A stretch of 40,706 nucleotides of DNA from Aliarcobacter sp. (lineage in GTDB: Bacteria; Campylobacterota; Campylobacteria; Campylobacterales; Arcobacteraceae), in NCBI GenBank assembly GCA_028703945.1, contig JAQVLW010000011.1, positions 1 through 40,706 on the forward strand, in the 5' to 3' direction. Under the pieces are notes generated by a model that saw only the letters and a program-made list of their open reading frames with translations, did not search any database and had not been told where the DNA came from. The position numbers and the translations under genes are program-made. Of the stretch, positions 28,013 through 34,477 are shown in pieces (the first letter of the stretch is position 1; each line of letters starts with the position of its first letter).

Positions 28013-28033
28013 AGTTTTAAACCCTATTTTTTC
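28003..28033. terminator. Bidirectional terminator holding both stop codons
   Basis: A perfect ten-base inverted repeat, GAAAAAATAG (28003-28012) and CTATTTTTTC (28024-28033), with an 11-base loop. The TAG of the plus-strand coiled-coil gene and the TAG of ovoA on the minus strand are mirror parts of the stem. The U-rich 3' arm suits termination in either direction. Confidence 0.75.
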
Positions 28034-30114
28034 TTCCAAATACTCATTTGAGAAATTGTATGTTGGTATTTTCGTGATGTTTCTTTTATCACAAATGGAA
28101 CATCAATTGTTTCTAAAAGTTCAAAATCTACTAGAAGATTCTCTTTTAAAGTATCCAAAGTTTTTACTTCTTTGTTATCTTTAATATATCCACCAAGCCA
28201 ATTTTCTTTTGGTGTATAATCTTCTAGCCATGTATATGGACTTAAAAGAACTAATAATCCATCTTTATTTATTCGTGATGGAATATCATCTAAAAACTTT
28301 TGAGGATAATATAATCTATCAATTAAATTTGAACAAAATATTAAATCAAAACATGTATAAATATCTTTTAAATTACAAGCATCACCTTGCATAAATGTTA
28401 CTTTTTCTTTAATTTTTTCTAATCCTAATTCTTTTAAAGAAATAGCTTTTTCTTCAAAAATTTCACCCTCTTTTTTAACTTTATAAATTAAAGAATCATA
28501 AATTTTAAGTTTAACTCCAACATTTATAAAATTTGTAGAAAAATCAATCCCTATAACATCATCAAATATTTTAGCTAGCTCAAAAGTTGACCTTCCAACA
28601 GAACAACCTAAATCTAAAGCTTTTTTATTATTCATATTTTTTAAATAAGGGTTTAAAAGTTCAACAGAATTTAAACAGAAATTTTTAACTCCAAAATTTT
28701 CACTTCCATAGTGAAAATCACAATATTGAGCAATTAATTCATCTGTTTCATAAACATTATCATTTAATTTTGTTCTATATTCATTTATTGATTTCACATA
28801 TCTAAATCCTGCATGTTGAAAGAAATGCTTTCTAAAGGCATATCTTGCCTCTTTTAAAGTCTCATTTCCCAAAGAAATAAATGACCCACCTTTCATGAGT
28901 GCATGTCTATCATCAAATGTAGGAGTTGTAAAATCATCATATATTGGATGTGCAATAAAATCATCAAAAGGATAAATCGGTGTTAAACTCCATTGCCAAA
29001 CATTTCCAATTACATCATAAAAATCATCAAATTTATACTTATCCACGCTACTTTGATTAAACTGAATAAGTCCAATATTTGCCTCTTTTTCTTGGGCATT
29101 TGTATAATTATATAAAGCATAATATTCATCTTCACTAGGAAGCCTTACTTCAAAACCTAACTTTGAAGATTTATATTTACAAAAAGCTTCCGCTTCATAA
29201 ATATTTATATCAACTGGATAATTTAAAGCAAGTGGAATAACTCTATTTATTTCTCTTAAAAAATAACTATCATCTTTTTTTATCCAAAAAGGTGGATGTT
29301 TTGCTTGAGTAAAATCCAGCCACTCTTTTCCTTCTGTTGAGAAAAATTCAGGTTTATTATAACCACCCTCTTTTACAAACTCTAAAAATTCACCATTTGA
29401 AACAAGATATTTTGATGCTTGAAAATCTTTTATAATAGCTTTATGAAAAGAAAATTCATTATCCCAACCATAATAAATAGGGTTTTCTCTATTCTTTTGT
29501 AAAGTTATAGTTGAGCCTTTTACTTCCAATAACTCATTTTTGGGATAAGTAGTTAAAGCTTCATTTTTATAAGTAAAAATTTCTTCAGATTTTAAAAATT
29601 TAATATCTAACTCTCTTAGAAGAACTGAAGATGTTTCAATATGTATATTTTCATGTTCAATTCCCATCAAAATAATCCACATAGAACTATCCCAATTTAT
29701 AGGCATTGTAAAAGACAAAGTATCAATTAAATCTAAAATTATCTGTTTTACTTCATTTCTATAAGCTTTTGTTTCTTCATATGTTGGCCAAGTATAGTGT
29801 CTTGAATTTAGGTCATCCCAAGACATTTCATCAACACCAATTGCAAAAATTGATTCAAATTTAGGATTAACCCTTTTTTTGATTATATTTGCAAGAGCTA
29901 GTTTATTTATAAAAAATGTTGCGGTATGTCCATAATAAAAAATCAAAGGATGTCTTAATCTATTTGGTTGTTGATACAAAGATTCTTTATCTTTTAATAA
30001 ATCAAAAAGCTTTTCATCTAATTCATAAGTTTGTAAAAACTGCTTTTTAATTTCTTCTCTTTTTTCTTCAATCGTACCTATTGTTAGGTTTACGCTATTT
30101 TTTATATAATTCAT
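28024..30114 (-). CDS. ovoA: Ovothiol biosynthesis enzyme OvoA (5-histidylcysteine sulfoxide synthase and N-methyltransferase)
   Basis: A 696-aa protein with three parts. An N-terminal DinB-like domain has the non-heme iron motif HENIHIE (His154, His158, Glu160, with His63 in YGHTATF as the likely third histidine). A formylglycine-generating-enzyme-like domain spans about 195-442. A C-terminal SAM methyltransferase domain starts near 497, with DLGCSVGRS at 501-509. This matches OvoA, which couples cysteine to histidine oxidatively and methylates the resulting mercaptohistidine. The ATG has AAGGA five bases upstream and overlaps the TPR-protein gene by 20 bases. The separate beta-lyase step (OvoB) is not obvious here. 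Confidence 0.93.
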   Translation of the reverse strand: MNYIKNSVNLTIGTIEEKREEIKKQFLQTYELDEKLFDLLKDKESLYQQPNRLRHPLIFYYGHTATFFINKLALANIIKKRVNPKFESIFAIGVDEMSWDDLNSRHYTWPTYEETKAYRNEVKQIILDLIDTLSFTMPINWDSSMWIILMGIEHENIHIETSSVLLRELDIKFLKSEEIFTYKNEALTTYPKNELLEVKGSTITLQKNRENPIYYGWDNEFSFHKAIIKDFQASKYLVSNGEFLEFVKEGGYNKPEFFSTEGKEWLDFTQAKHPPFWIKKDDSYFLREINRVIPLALNYPVDINIYEAEAFCKYKSSKLGFEVRLPSEDEYYALYNYTNAQEKEANIGLIQFNQSSVDKYKFDDFYDVIGNVWQWSLTPIYPFDDFIAHPIYDDFTTPTFDDRHALMKGGSFISLGNETLKEARYAFRKHFFQHAGFRYVKSINEYRTKLNDNVYETDELIAQYCDFHYGSENFGVKNFCLNSVELLNPYLKNMNNKKALDLGCSVGRSTFELAKIFDDVIGIDFSTNFINVGVKLKIYDSLIYKVKKEGEIFEEKAISLKELGLEKIKEKVTFMQGDACNLKDIYTCFDLIFCSNLIDRLYYPQKFLDDIPSRINKDGLLVLLSPYTWLEDYTPKENWLGGYIKDNKEVKTLDTLKENLLVDFELLETIDVPFVIKETSRKYQHTISQMSIWKKK

Positions 30115-32335
30115 TAAATTCCTTATCTAAAAATTCTATTTTTTTTATTTTATTGTTTTTTTCAAACTCTTTGTATACATTTAATAGCTGGTTTAACTCA
30201 CTTTGCCCTAAATTTAGTAAATGATTTTCAAGCCTTAAAACTATATCTTTTGTATCAATTTTTAGTAAACTTTTTACAATATAATTTTCAATTAAAACCA
30301 TTCCTAATCTTTTTATAGATTTTGTTTTGTCAAGGATAATTAAAGCTTCATTCGTAGTTTCTAAAACTTCATTACATAAAGATAAATCCATAATATTTGA
30401 AATTTTGTATAAAATATTTAATGCAAAATTATGTAAAACAACTGGCATTTCATCCCTATCACCAACTGATTGTTTTAAAATCATTCCCAGTCGTCCAAGT
30501 TTTATTGATTTATCAATATTTTTTTCATCTTTTGAAGTTTGCAAAATATATTTATATCTATAAGAAATAGCCATATTTACAAAAGTCCCACCATATTCAA
30601 AAGCTCCTAAAGTTGGTATTGATAAGCATTTTTTATAATAAGCTATTGCTTCATCATAATTTTCATTCCACTCTTGTAAATTTGCTTTTATATTATAAAA
30701 ATGCCACAACCATAAAGGATTATTATCTTCACTATGAGAAAACAGTAAGCTTTCTAACTTATTTAACGATTCTATTCCTTCTTGTTTTAAACTTTCATTT
30801 CTTTGTGAAATGATAATCCAAACAGCTTTTCTTTGATAATATCTAACTTCTATATCATTTGGTTTAAAATCTTTTCCTAAATTAAGCTCTTTTGGCAAAC
30901 TATTATATGCTTGTTCAAATTTTCCCATTCTTTCATATAATGAACAAATATTTAAAGCATATTTATTTGGATTTATTTCATATAAATATTGATTTAAAAG
31001 TATTGCTTGTTCAAAATGACCATTTCTTTCAAATAAAAATGCTAAATCATTTAAAGCTTCTATTGAAATTTTTCTATAATAAGAGTTATTTGAACTTTCA
31101 AAAGTATTTACATCATTAAAATCAAACATCAATCCAGCTATTTCAAACCAATAAAAATTAATTAATTCATATTGTTGTTTATTTTTAATTGAACTAATAA
31201 GTTTTTCCAAAATTTTTATAGTTCGTCTTTGGTCAAGTACAATATCTTTTACATAATAATATAAAATTAAAAAAGATATTGGATTTTCAAAAGTGGCAAC
31301 ACACTCTTCTATATGATTTCTTAAATAATAAGCCAATCTTCTTTCTTCATCACTTAAATCTTTAAAAGTAACATTTGAAGTAAAAAAGACTTGTAATGAT
31401 TTTTCTTGAGCTAGAAATTTAAAATCATCAAAACTTCTATTTATAAAATTTTGAAATCCAAAAATAAGTTGATTTTTAGAATCTTGTTCATCTTTAGTGA
31501 AGTTTTTACCACAATATTCAAAAAGTTCCAAAGATATAAAAGTTTTTTTATCTCTTTGTTTTAAAATAACAGTTGAGCAAAGTTGCATTAAAGAGTACAA
31601 TTTTTGCTCTTTTGATGATAATAAAATCTCAATATCGCACTTTTTAGAGCTATTTTCATCTCTAATTATTTCTATATCTAAAATACCAAGTTTTTTTAAT
31701 CTTTTAGTGATATTTTGTAATTTATCATTTCTAACATAAAAATTTATAGTTAAAAATCTATTTAAAATCGTACTTGTAAATATCTTCCAAAGCCAATGAT
31801 TTGAGTCTTCCAAATCAAAATTATAAAGGTGAATATTCATTTCTTTATCAAAATTAAAAAGTGTTAATTCTAATTTCTTTAATTTTCTAATATCTTTATT
31901 AAACCATGAAGATATTAGATTTTTAAACTCATTTCCTTCTCCATCTAAAATTGATGGCATCATTAATACACCAAAGAAAAAAACTAAAACAAAACCAAAA
32001 GCTATATAATCATTTAATTCCCAAGAAAAAGGCATCTCAAAAACAATTTTTTTCAAAAAATCTTCATATATAGAAACTGATAAAAATGCTACTAAAATTA
32101 CAAAAACAGAAATTACAGAAATAAAAGTTGAAGAAAATTTCTTTTTAAAAAAATAAAAAAAAGATGAACTTCCTGCCAATAAATTTACATCCTGTTCAAA
32201 TTTATCTAAACTATCATTCTCACAATAAGTTATGTATAAATCATCATTTTTCTTTATAACACAACTTTCATCTACAGTTTTTCTCTTTGAATTACAAAGC
32301 TTTGAAATATGGATAAAACAATTAGGTTGATTCAT
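30095..32335 (-). CDS. Membrane-anchored TPR-containing protein, unknown (746 aa)
   Basis: A 746-aa protein with a short N-terminal cytoplasmic-looking segment containing several cysteines (Cys6, Cys14, Cys25, Cys38) and two transmembrane helices at about 68-91 and 108-130. A large soluble region follows. The C-terminal half contains TPR-like helical pairs (for example NDLAFLFERNGHFEQAILLNQYLYEINP and IKANLQEWNENYDEAIAYYKKCLS, around 425-600). I assign no enzymatic function. It starts in a four-base ATGA overlap with the cyclotransferase gene and ends 20 bases inside ovoA, so it is tightly coupled to both. A scaffold or sensor role is only inference. Confidence 0.82.
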   Translation of the reverse strand: MNQPNCFIHISKLCNSKRKTVDESCVIKKNDDLYITYCENDSLDKFEQDVNLLAGSSSFFYFFKKKFSSTFISVISVFVILVAFLSVSIYEDFLKKIVFEMPFSWELNDYIAFGFVLVFFFGVLMMPSILDGEGNEFKNLISSWFNKDIRKLKKLELTLFNFDKEMNIHLYNFDLEDSNHWLWKIFTSTILNRFLTINFYVRNDKLQNITKRLKKLGILDIEIIRDENSSKKCDIEILLSSKEQKLYSLMQLCSTVILKQRDKKTFISLELFEYCGKNFTKDEQDSKNQLIFGFQNFINRSFDDFKFLAQEKSLQVFFTSNVTFKDLSDEERRLAYYLRNHIEECVATFENPISFLILYYYVKDIVLDQRRTIKILEKLISSIKNKQQYELINFYWFEIAGLMFDFNDVNTFESSNNSYYRKISIEALNDLAFLFERNGHFEQAILLNQYLYEINPNKYALNICSLYERMGKFEQAYNSLPKELNLGKDFKPNDIEVRYYQRKAVWIIISQRNESLKQEGIESLNKLESLLFSHSEDNNPLWLWHFYNIKANLQEWNENYDEAIAYYKKCLSIPTLGAFEYGGTFVNMAISYRYKYILQTSKDEKNIDKSIKLGRLGMILKQSVGDRDEMPVVLHNFALNILYKISNIMDLSLCNEVLETTNEALIILDKTKSIKRLGMVLIENYIVKSLLKIDTKDIVLRLENHLLNLGQSELNQLLNVYKEFEKNNKIKKIEFLDKEFNELYKK

Positions 32336-32898
32336 TTTAGGTTTTTTATTCCTTCTCTTGCTATTTTATTTTGAAGTGAATCTGTAAATGTATAAGACCC
32401 ATCTTTTAAAGAAAAATTATAATTTTCAAAGGTTTTTTCAAAACCTTTAATAAAATTATCATCATAATTTTTCAAAGCCTCTTTTACTATTTCTATATAT
32501 TTAATTGGAATAAATGTATTTTCTTGCCCAATAAATGCAATTTTTTCTTTTTTTGTTGTCATAAAAGCTATTAAATCACTTTTTATTGTTTCATCTAAAA
32601 CATCGGTTGATTTTATAACTATACAACTATAATTTTTTTCTCTTATTTTTAAAACTTCTAATTCTTCATCTGAAATTTCTATTACCACTCCATCTAAAAT
32701 AGAATTTTTATTTTCTTGAATATTTAAAAAAACTCCATTTACATTTTTATCTTCAAAAGCAATAGATTCTATTGCATTCCAAACTCTTTCATAACCTTTT
32801 ATTTTTATTGGTTTTAAATCATTTTGGCTTAAAACCCTTTTGAAAGATTTTTGAGCAGATGCTAAATTTATTAAAGAACCAAAACCAAATAAATACAT
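32332..32898 (-). CDS. Gamma-glutamylcyclotransferase-fold protein
   Basis: A 188-aa protein that starts with LFGFGSLIN, the substrate-binding loop of the gamma-glutamylcyclotransferase superfamily. A catalytic-type Glu is present in LKIREKNY (Glu87). Known members release 5-oxoproline from gamma-glutamyl peptides or glutathione, and others act on different amines. The C-terminal 60 residues are less typical. It lies one base after the RraA-like gene and overlaps the TPR gene by four. Given ovoA downstream, a role in supplying or recycling cysteine is possible but unproven. Confidence 0.82.
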   Translation of the reverse strand: MYLFGFGSLINLASAQKSFKRVLSQNDLKPIKIKGYERVWNAIESIAFEDKNVNGVFLNIQENKNSILDGVVIEISDEELEVLKIREKNYSCIVIKSTDVLDETIKSDLIAFMTTKKEKIAFIGQENTFIPIKYIEIVKEALKNYDDNFIKGFEKTFENYNFSLKDGSYTFTDSLQNKIAREGIKNLK

Positions 32899-32899
32899 T

Positions 32900-33379
32900 T
32901 TAAACCAATCTTTCTTTACAAATTACTATTCCATCAGAATCAACATACACATAATCACCTGAATTAATCTCAACATCATCAATAACAAGAGGAACTCTTA
33001 TTTGTCCATCTTGAGCAGGAATATATTTTCGAGGACAAGTTCCTTTGGCAATAAGTCCAATATCAAACTCTTTAGTTGTAACAGTATCTCTTACATAACC
33101 ATTTACTATAATTCCCTCAAATTTATTATCACTTGCGAATTTCATCAAATTATCACCAACAACAGCAAAATATCTCATATTTACATCAACAATAACAACC
33201 TTTCCAATTCCATCATTATTCTTTAAAAATGCAGCTAAATCTTTATTGTTTTTATCAAGTTTAATAGTTATTACTTCACCTTTAAATTTTTTATTTCCAC
33301 CATAAGACTGAAAATCAGGCCCTAAAACTTCTGTTTTATCACTAAAGTTATCGCATAAATCTGCTGTAAAAAATCCCAT
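32900..33379 (-). CDS. RraA-family protein
   Basis: A 159-aa protein from the chosen start. FTADLCDNFSD, GKVVIVDVN, GDNLMKFA, GIIVNGYVRDT and the GDYVYVDSDGIVI ending match the RraA / class II HMG aldolase-like family, at about the length of E. coli RraA. The frame extends upstream to 33406, but the ATG at 33379 has AGGA eight bases upstream and gives the family N-terminus. The Asp-x20-Arg-Asp pattern is present, but the acidic residue at Arg+4 seen in aldolases is Thr. E. coli RraA inhibits RNase E; Campylobacterota are generally thought to lack RNase E, so another role is likely. Confidence 0.88.
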   Translation of the reverse strand: MGFFTADLCDNFSDKTEVLGPDFQSYGGNKKFKGEVITIKLDKNNKDLAAFLKNNDGIGKVVIVDVNMRYFAVVGDNLMKFASDNKFEGIIVNGYVRDTVTTKEFDIGLIAKGTCPRKYIPAQDGQIRVPLVIDDVEINSGDYVYVDSDGIVICKERLV

Positions 33380-33493
33380 AATATAATTCCTTTTATTTAA
33401 ATTCATTAGTAGCTATTATTATCTCATTTTAGTATTAAATTATTCTTATTATTTACGCAAATTTGATACAATACAATTCTTTAAAGGAATTAT

Positions 33494-34477
33494 ATGAAGC
33501 TTATTTTTAATACATTTTTGGTACTTTTTATTTTATTTATTAGTGGTTGCAGTTCAAAAAGATTAACAATAAAAGCTCTTCAACCCTCAAAAATAGAAAA
33601 TGAAAAAATTCATACAATAAGAATTGATAGGTTTTATAGGGATGATGTAAACCAAACTGAAAGTATCACAAACAAAATAGCAAATAAAATAGTTGACAAT
33701 CAAAGAGTATTCGAAGTAAAATATAATGATTTTGGAACAGATGCTGTATTAACAGGTGATGTTTTAAATTCATCATTAAATACCTATGTTTATTATAGAA
33801 CTGAAATAGATTATTCAAGATGTAGATTTTATAGATATGATGAAAGAAATAAAATCAGAGAGTGTATAGAATACCAAATTAGAAGTATTCCTTGTGAAAA
33901 AAGAGAATACAATGTTACAACAAGTATAAAACTTATAAAACCAATAACAAATGCATTAATATTCTCAAAAACATATGATAAATCAAGCTTTGATGATATG
34001 TGTTATGACAGACACCCTTATTATCCTTTTTATCCTGATTCTAGGGATAAATTTAGAGTAAACACTCAAATAGCAAATGATATTTCAAGTGATATTTTAG
34101 ATGATATTTCGCCACATTATGTATATTATGATATTGAAATAATTGACGAACTAGATAAAGGTACTTTAACTTTTTCAAAAGAACAAGAAAAAAGATTTGA
34201 AAAGGTTGTTGAATTAATTGTAACAAAAAATCTTGATTTAGCAAAAATTGAACTAGAAAATTTAGATAAAGATTTCAAGCAAAAAAGTTTTGAAGTTATC
34301 TATAATTTAGCACTAATAAATGAAGCATATAATCAACTAAAAATTGCAAATGAACTTTATAATGAAGCGAAAATGTTAACTTTAAATACAAAATATTTAG
34401 ATTTAGCTAATTATGGAATAAGTAGAACAAGTAGAAATTTAGAACAAAAAATAAAAGCTAAATCTCAATTACCATAG
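33494..34477 (+). CDS. Predicted lipoprotein, unknown function
   Basis: A 327-aa protein with a lipoprotein signal peptide: a hydrophobic core, then FISGCSS with the lipidated Cys at position 19. The middle region (30-200) is beta-rich and has several Cys (for example RCRFYRY, RECIEY, IPCEKREY, DDMCYDRHPYY). The C-terminal 90 residues look helical and TPR-like (FEVIYNLALINEAYNQLKIANELYNEA). No known family is clear. AAAGGAA precedes the ATG. It is divergent from the ovoA operon. Confidence 0.82.
   Translation: MKLIFNTFLVLFILFISGCSSKRLTIKALQPSKIENEKIHTIRIDRFYRDDVNQTESITNKIANKIVDNQRVFEVKYNDFGTDAVLTGDVLNSSLNTYVYYRTEIDYSRCRFYRYDERNKIRECIEYQIRSIPCEKREYNVTTSIKLIKPITNALIFSKTYDKSSFDDMCYDRHPYYPFYPDSRDKFRVNTQIANDISSDILDDISPHYVYYDIEIIDELDKGTLTFSKEQEKRFEKVVELIVTKNLDLAKIELENLDKDFKQKSFEVIYNLALINEAYNQLKIANELYNEAKMLTLNTKYLDLANYGISRTSRNLEQKIKAKSQLP

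Follow-up and report, generated by a model that had tools for sequence, protein, structure and literature searches.

We propose that the ovoA operon in a 40,706-nucleotide stretch of an Aliarcobacter sp. genome (contig JAQVLW010000011.1, hereafter the window) is a composite of two units, one consisting of OvoA and an RraA-like protein and the other of a ChaC-like protein and a TPR membrane protein, and we give this reading a probability of about 0.65. The ChaC-like and TPR genes form an obligate pair, since each of the 52 ChaC-like orthologues found in Arcobacteraceae lies directly upstream of the TPR gene. The pair also occurs without OvoA and is therefore not specific to ovothiol. The RraA subfamily of the window, as sampled here, tracks OvoA and was seen only in OvoA-positive genomes.

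The four genes lie on the minus strand in the order RraA, ChaC-like, TPR, and OvoA. The RraA-like gene (32900..33379, 159 aa, with an alternative upstream start at 33406) encodes a member of the HMG/CHA-aldolase superfamily and is separated by 1 nt from the ChaC-like gene (32332..32898, 188 aa), whose product resembles ChaC/GGCT-fold gamma-glutamylcyclotransferases in fold and motifs. The latter gene overlaps the TPR gene (30095..32335, 746 aa) by 4 nt, which in turn overlaps ovoA (28024..30114, 696 aa) by 20 nt. These coordinates agree with the sequence-only reading, which had described four genes one base apart or overlapping, with ovoA starting inside the TPR gene. A Shine-Dalgarno-like AAGGA stands ahead of the RraA start at 33379 and also ahead of the OvoA start, within the TPR gene. 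Judging from the spacing, the four genes would be co-transcribed, and the operon promoter is probably located in the 87-bp divergent intergenic region (33407..33493) between the RraA ORF start at 33406 and the gene at 33494. The four-gene row is genuine, as the same order was found in 37 of 104 Arcobacteraceae genomes representing nine genera, and we judge this conservation, without a formal test, to be beyond chance. A defence system was considered and rejected: PADLOC was blank for RraA, ChaC-like, and TPR, and its mad2 match to OvoA (43.4 bits) covered only residues 485-673, within the methyltransferase part.

Each of the four proteins was searched in the 104 Arcobacteraceae genomes, and the match coordinates were then joined. 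OvoA is present in 79 genomes (raw count 81, with short methyltransferase-region fragments in G005 and G008 left out), TPR in 55, and ChaC-like orthologues in 52 (raw count 60, with eight genomes having weak matches only, E above 1e-12, left out). One of the 37 complete rows has an extra gene between TPR and OvoA (G032). The arrangement ChaC-TPR-OvoA without an adjacent RraA was found in three genomes with visible flanks (G003, G017, and G078), and TPR-OvoA was found in three genomes in which the contig ends inside TPR (G013, G019, and G095). RraA-OvoA occurs without the pair in 11 genomes, 9 of the 55 TPR-positive genomes carry the pair but no OvoA, and the pair and OvoA lie on different contigs in three (G076, G086, and G087). 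Across the 104 genomes, the pair and OvoA are both present in 46, the pair only in 9, OvoA only in 33, and neither in 16, which is a weak association (Fisher p = 0.067, kinship ignored). Linkage of ChaC-TPR to OvoA is nevertheless kept in 43 of the 55 TPR-positive genomes, across many genera; this is more persistent than neutral co-location predicts and counts against the composite reading. The expectation that the four families co-occur around ovoA is thus borne out within part of the Arcobacteraceae (37/104), but not where the pair lacks OvoA (9/55), where the two are unlinked (three genomes), or in the two pair-bearing genomes from a different family. Seven genomes have an ADP-ribosylglycohydrolase-family gene at this locus (L122:4826-5896, with a PF03747 score of 159 bits; also at L123, L124, L125, L126, L142, and L159); it separates RraA from OvoA, separates TPR from OvoA, or lies beside these genes, and is a candidate for a further OvoA-associated gene.

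In eight of the nine OvoA-free genomes, the pair occupies the same chromosomal place as in the window, between the ComEC-like c1 gene and the c5/c6 genes, and RraA and OvoA are missing from that place. The pair stands alone between these flanks in G007, G009, G014, G016, and G030 and is accompanied by extra genes in G008, G024, and G028; in the ninth genome (G005), it lies at another place. A profile scan of 397 genomes sampled from the phylum gave TPR matches in 28, and the only ones outside Arcobacteraceae were G253 and G289, which belong to another family and each have a ChaC-like gene directly upstream of TPR; neither gave an OvoA match. Since OvoA exceeded its cut-off in 119 of the 397 genomes, most OvoA genes in the phylum sample are without the ChaC-TPR pair. 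A TPR-profile scan of the genome collection yielded 24 loci, one of which is a partial TPR match (116 residues, 48%) on L215, a contig of 3.3 kb from a MAG named Sulfurimonas, and may reflect transfer or contamination. In G253, the diverged pair (L191:5928-9951) overlaps the next gene downstream, a carbon-nitrogen hydrolase that weakly resembles deaminated glutathione amidase (49 bits against a cut-off of 355), and the gene that follows is presumably methyltransferase-like.

A glycine-rich GSL loop and a catalytic Glu in R-E-x-x-Y are the motifs of GGCT and ChaC enzymes. The AlphaFold2 model of the ChaC-like protein (pLDDT 92.8) has human GGCT, YkqA, and ChaC2 as its nearest folds (3cry, Z 13.9 over 147 residues at 2.4 A; ChaC2, 6ky1, Z 11.8 over 145 residues at 3.5 A), and the GxGSL and REKxY motifs are each present in 27 of 27 aligned orthologues. 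The alignment range suggests that E87 is equivalent to E83 of ChaC2. Against PF04752, the window protein scores 16.6 bits, below the gathering cut-off of 21; of the 27 members, 23 have a match at E <= 1, with a best value of 1.7e-6. By modelled fold and motif, the protein looks like a gamma-glutamylcyclotransferase, yet it stands outside PF04752 membership. Weak beta-conglycinin matches, the only ones returned when PDB sequences were searched with the ChaC-like profile, were discarded.

The ChaC-like profile found matches in 32 of the 397 genomes. The best match outside the pair is to residues 9-166 (116.6 bits) of an 886-aa protein in G346 (L258:3469-6129), and thus the ChaC-like domain is N-terminal. 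A ChaC-TPR fusion had been considered for this 887-aa frame; its partner is not TPR, as residues 174-882 are like the bifunctional glutathione synthetase GshF (NF002688, 806 bits, cut-off 425; TIGR01435, 609 bits, below the cut-off of 656). Both the fusion gene and the diverged pair of G253 have an nrdB-like gene directly upstream, which we take to be nrdB in each case. In two distant genomes, G389 and G263 (L259:8801-9805 and L260:5444-6508), the ChaC-like domain is C-terminal to a DUF4760 domain. The GSL loop and R-E-x-x-Y are kept in all three fusions. Taken together, these observations suggest that the substrate is a gamma-glutamyl thiol and that the ChaC-like domain has been tethered repeatedly. 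The ChaC-like gene of G389 lies upstream of OvoA with a c10-cluster gene between them, which we assume to be GGDEF-like. An independent OvoA-ChaC link in this genome was rejected because the gene is a DUF4760 fusion with another gene intervening, and because no OvoA match was found in G263, which is similar.

The TPR protein is predicted to comprise a small N-terminal beta part, two transmembrane helices, an alpha/beta region, and a C-terminal TPR superhelix (model pLDDT 82.6). Hydropathy places the hydrophobic segments at about residues 65-95 and 106-133, and the TPR fold matches cover residues 369-746; the earlier description of a 746-aa membrane TPR protein is thus upheld by two hydrophobic segments and a modelled superhelix. 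The fold matches were to Rap-type and other superhelices with near-tied scores, and a specific function was not taken from them. No description of a TPR/cyclotransferase unit was found in the open-licence PubMed Central literature.

The sequence-only reading had also suggested that the cyclotransferase could release cysteine for OvoA, and the gene content of the window's genome speaks against this. The PF04262 ligase exceeded its cut-off in none of the 104 family genomes, the window's genome included, and the PF04107 ligase was found in 12 of the 104, none of them in the window's genus. PF08886 gave no match over cut-off in the 68 genomes tried, the window's included, and no positive-control genome gave a match either. 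PF02955 exceeded its cut-off in 87 of the 104 genomes, of which the matches of three were typed (the window's, G080, and G034). The sole match in the window's genome is RimK and was rejected as a glutathione synthetase, and those of G080 and G034 are GshB-like, with NF003573 over and TIGR01380 below cut-off. PF04107 ligases or GshB-like genes exist in some other Arcobacteraceae genera. Glutathione synthesis is not apparent from the genes of the window's organism, and no paper on glutathione biosynthesis in Arcobacter was found in open-licence PubMed Central. Because no gene for glutathione synthesis was found in this genome, a cysteine supply through the cyclotransferase would be without an endogenous source. 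Imported glutathione or another gamma-glutamyl compound is a possible substrate of the cyclotransferase.

The RraA-like protein, in its 168-aa form, narrowly passes NF006875 (139.2 bits, cut-off 136); it also exceeds the cut-off of TIGR01935 (125.1 bits against 123.8) and falls below that of the enterobacterial RraA model TIGR02998 (94.7 bits against 241). Its closest solved chains are RraA (family structures 1vi4, 1q5x, and 3noj). The aldolase-type motif [D/E]-X20-R-D, read by eye, is present in all 76 aligned RraA rows; the pattern D-X20-R-[DE] is present in 32 of 48 OvoA-adjacent and 22 of 28 other rows, with E in place of D in the rest. Passages of a published report describe most RraA homologues as holding one of two catalytic motifs and as likely class II pyruvate aldolases (PMC5065237). 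A phylogenetic tree was built from these 76 rows, a sample of the RraA matches; it represents each of the seven genomes that match RraA strongly but lack OvoA, and leaves out one of the two copies of OvoA-negative G060. All 48 OvoA-adjacent sequences fall on one side of the tree with weak support (70/20), and the enclosing clade of 50 (support 96/82) adds G084 and G085, in which OvoA lies elsewhere in the genome. All 50 genomes of this clade are OvoA-positive (Fisher p = 2.4e-9, kinship ignored). This subfamily is missing from 29 OvoA genomes, some of them cut by contig ends. Occurrence only alongside OvoA, as expected of an ovothiol-specific module, is thus seen in this sample for the RraA subfamily and not for the ChaC-TPR pair.

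OvoA enzymes join cysteine and histidine into a sulfoxide and later N-methylate 5-thiohistidine. OvoA of the window is full length, with a 5-histidylcysteine sulfoxide synthase (TIGR04344, 625.2 bits, cut-off 400) followed by a C-terminal 5-thiohistidine N-methyltransferase (TIGR04345, 322.1 bits, cut-off 170), and its best PDB match is 8khq (E 1.5e-241). In G042, G076, G084, and genomes of genus g54, some OvoA genes have open frames of only some 470-660 aa, and their C-terminal methyltransferase part is missing or diverged; a separate match to this part is present elsewhere in G042, G076, and G084. Adjacency of an OvoB candidate was checked in those 63 of 77 tabulated genomes whose contigs extend 1 kb or more downstream of OvoA. 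A PatB-type lyase gene (one member was typed: 412 bits, cut-off 340) follows OvoA in 16 of the 31 genomes without an adjacent RraA and at none of the 32 RraA-linked loci. Window-like OvoA loci (over 1000 bits) without an adjacent RraA had no adjacent lyase either (0/10). An OvoB candidate adjoins none of the 42 window-like OvoA loci, with or without RraA, and 16 of the 21 distant ones. The missing adjacent OvoB therefore follows the OvoA lineage and not RraA.

Several other explanations were weighed against the composite operon. RraA might take part in ovothiol metabolism, for example by acting on a pyruvate- or cysteinyl-derived product or on a keto-acid form of the sulfoxide, with ChaC-TPR having no such part. 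Its clade of purely OvoA-positive genomes, the 11 genomes that keep RraA-OvoA without the pair, the retained aldolase-type motif, and the 32 of 32 RraA-linked loci without an adjacent OvoB agree with this idea. On the other side are the 29 OvoA genomes without this RraA, of which G003, G017, and G078 cannot be attributed to contig ends, and the OvoB pattern: because the absence follows the OvoA lineage, we rate readings that place RraA in ovothiol metabolism lower, and this one we regard as rather unlikely. A more elaborate version, in which RraA, as a metal-dependent enzyme of the 5-thiohistidine pathway, takes the place of an adjacent OvoB lyase in the Arcobacteraceae OvoA lineage and the co-transcribed ChaC-TPR pair is a membrane-docked recycler that uses gamma-glutamyl thiols imported into the cell to meet OvoA's need for cysteine, is highly improbable.

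All four genes might instead form a single ovothiol module, in which the cyclotransferase frees cysteine for OvoA from glutathione or gamma-Glu-Cys, directly or via Cys-Gly, with TPR as a scaffold. The persistent linkage to OvoA and the GshF fusion of a near relative, which points to a thiol gamma-glutamyl substrate, would fit; we nevertheless consider it improbable and reject the single four-gene module, given that nine family genomes and the two TPR-positive genomes of another family have the pair but no OvoA match, that 33 genomes have OvoA but not the pair, and that searches of the window's genome turned up neither a GshA-type ligase nor GshB. Finally, the four genes could be mere neighbors on a slowly rearranging chromosome, since linkage of all four is seen in one family only and other neighbors, such as the downstream ComEC, are kept too. 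Overlapping or near-touching genes in the same direction across nine genera argue against such chance, as does the fact that the ChaC-TPR pair remains intact where it is located elsewhere (G005, G076, G086, G087, G253, and G289), and we find this account quite improbable.

For the preferred composite operon, we propose the following scheme. In the first unit, OvoA, with the RraA/HMG-aldolase-like protein as its partner, would make the cysteine-histidine sulfoxide and later N-methylate 5-thiohistidine, and the lyase step presumably relies on an enzyme encoded elsewhere. In the second, the ChaC-like protein may act as a soluble enzyme that converts a gamma-glutamyl compound into 5-oxoproline and an amino acid or peptide, as its fold and motifs suggest. 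The TPR protein may anchor this cyclotransferase to the membrane on its cytoplasmic side, where it would present or sense the substrate or partner of the enzyme. This second unit would be able to act without ovothiol, and its sharing of an operon with ovoA may reflect a common low-molecular-weight thiol/redox theme rather than a biosynthetic step.

The analysis corrects a tempting reading of the locus as an ovothiol module and leaves two leads: an RraA subfamily that occurs only with OvoA in our sample, and a membrane TPR/cyclotransferase unit, relatives of which are fusions with glutathione synthetase or DUF4760. Because the pair is present in OvoA-free relatives, the two functions can be separated experimentally. 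Searches of open-licence PubMed Central found no papers on ovothiol with Arcobacter, ovothiol with RraA, or a GGCT-TPR operon; one review there mentions both ovothiol and Campylobacter.

The ChaC-like protein shares its fold and motifs with the known GGCT/ChaC enzymes (3cry, 6ky1, and PF04752) and differs from them by its sub-cut-off score and its obligate membrane-TPR partner, and by having relatives that are fused to DUF4760 or GshF. Likewise, the RraA-like protein has the scores and motif of the RraA/HMG-CHA aldolase family, and its subfamily differs in its OvoA-only occurrence in the sample. While a PatB-type OvoB candidate typically adjoins distant OvoA genes in Campylobacterota, OvoA of the window is adjoined by RraA and ChaC-TPR instead. 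In passages of a report on ovoA in Proteiniphilum, a neighboring LemA/DUF2207 pair that is also found without ovoA was judged not to be directly linked, and the acetyltransferase 5THNAT, which tracks OvoA, was pursued (PMC12631010). The reasoning in those passages is the same as that applied here to ChaC-TPR, although it concerns other genes in another phylum (PMC12631010).
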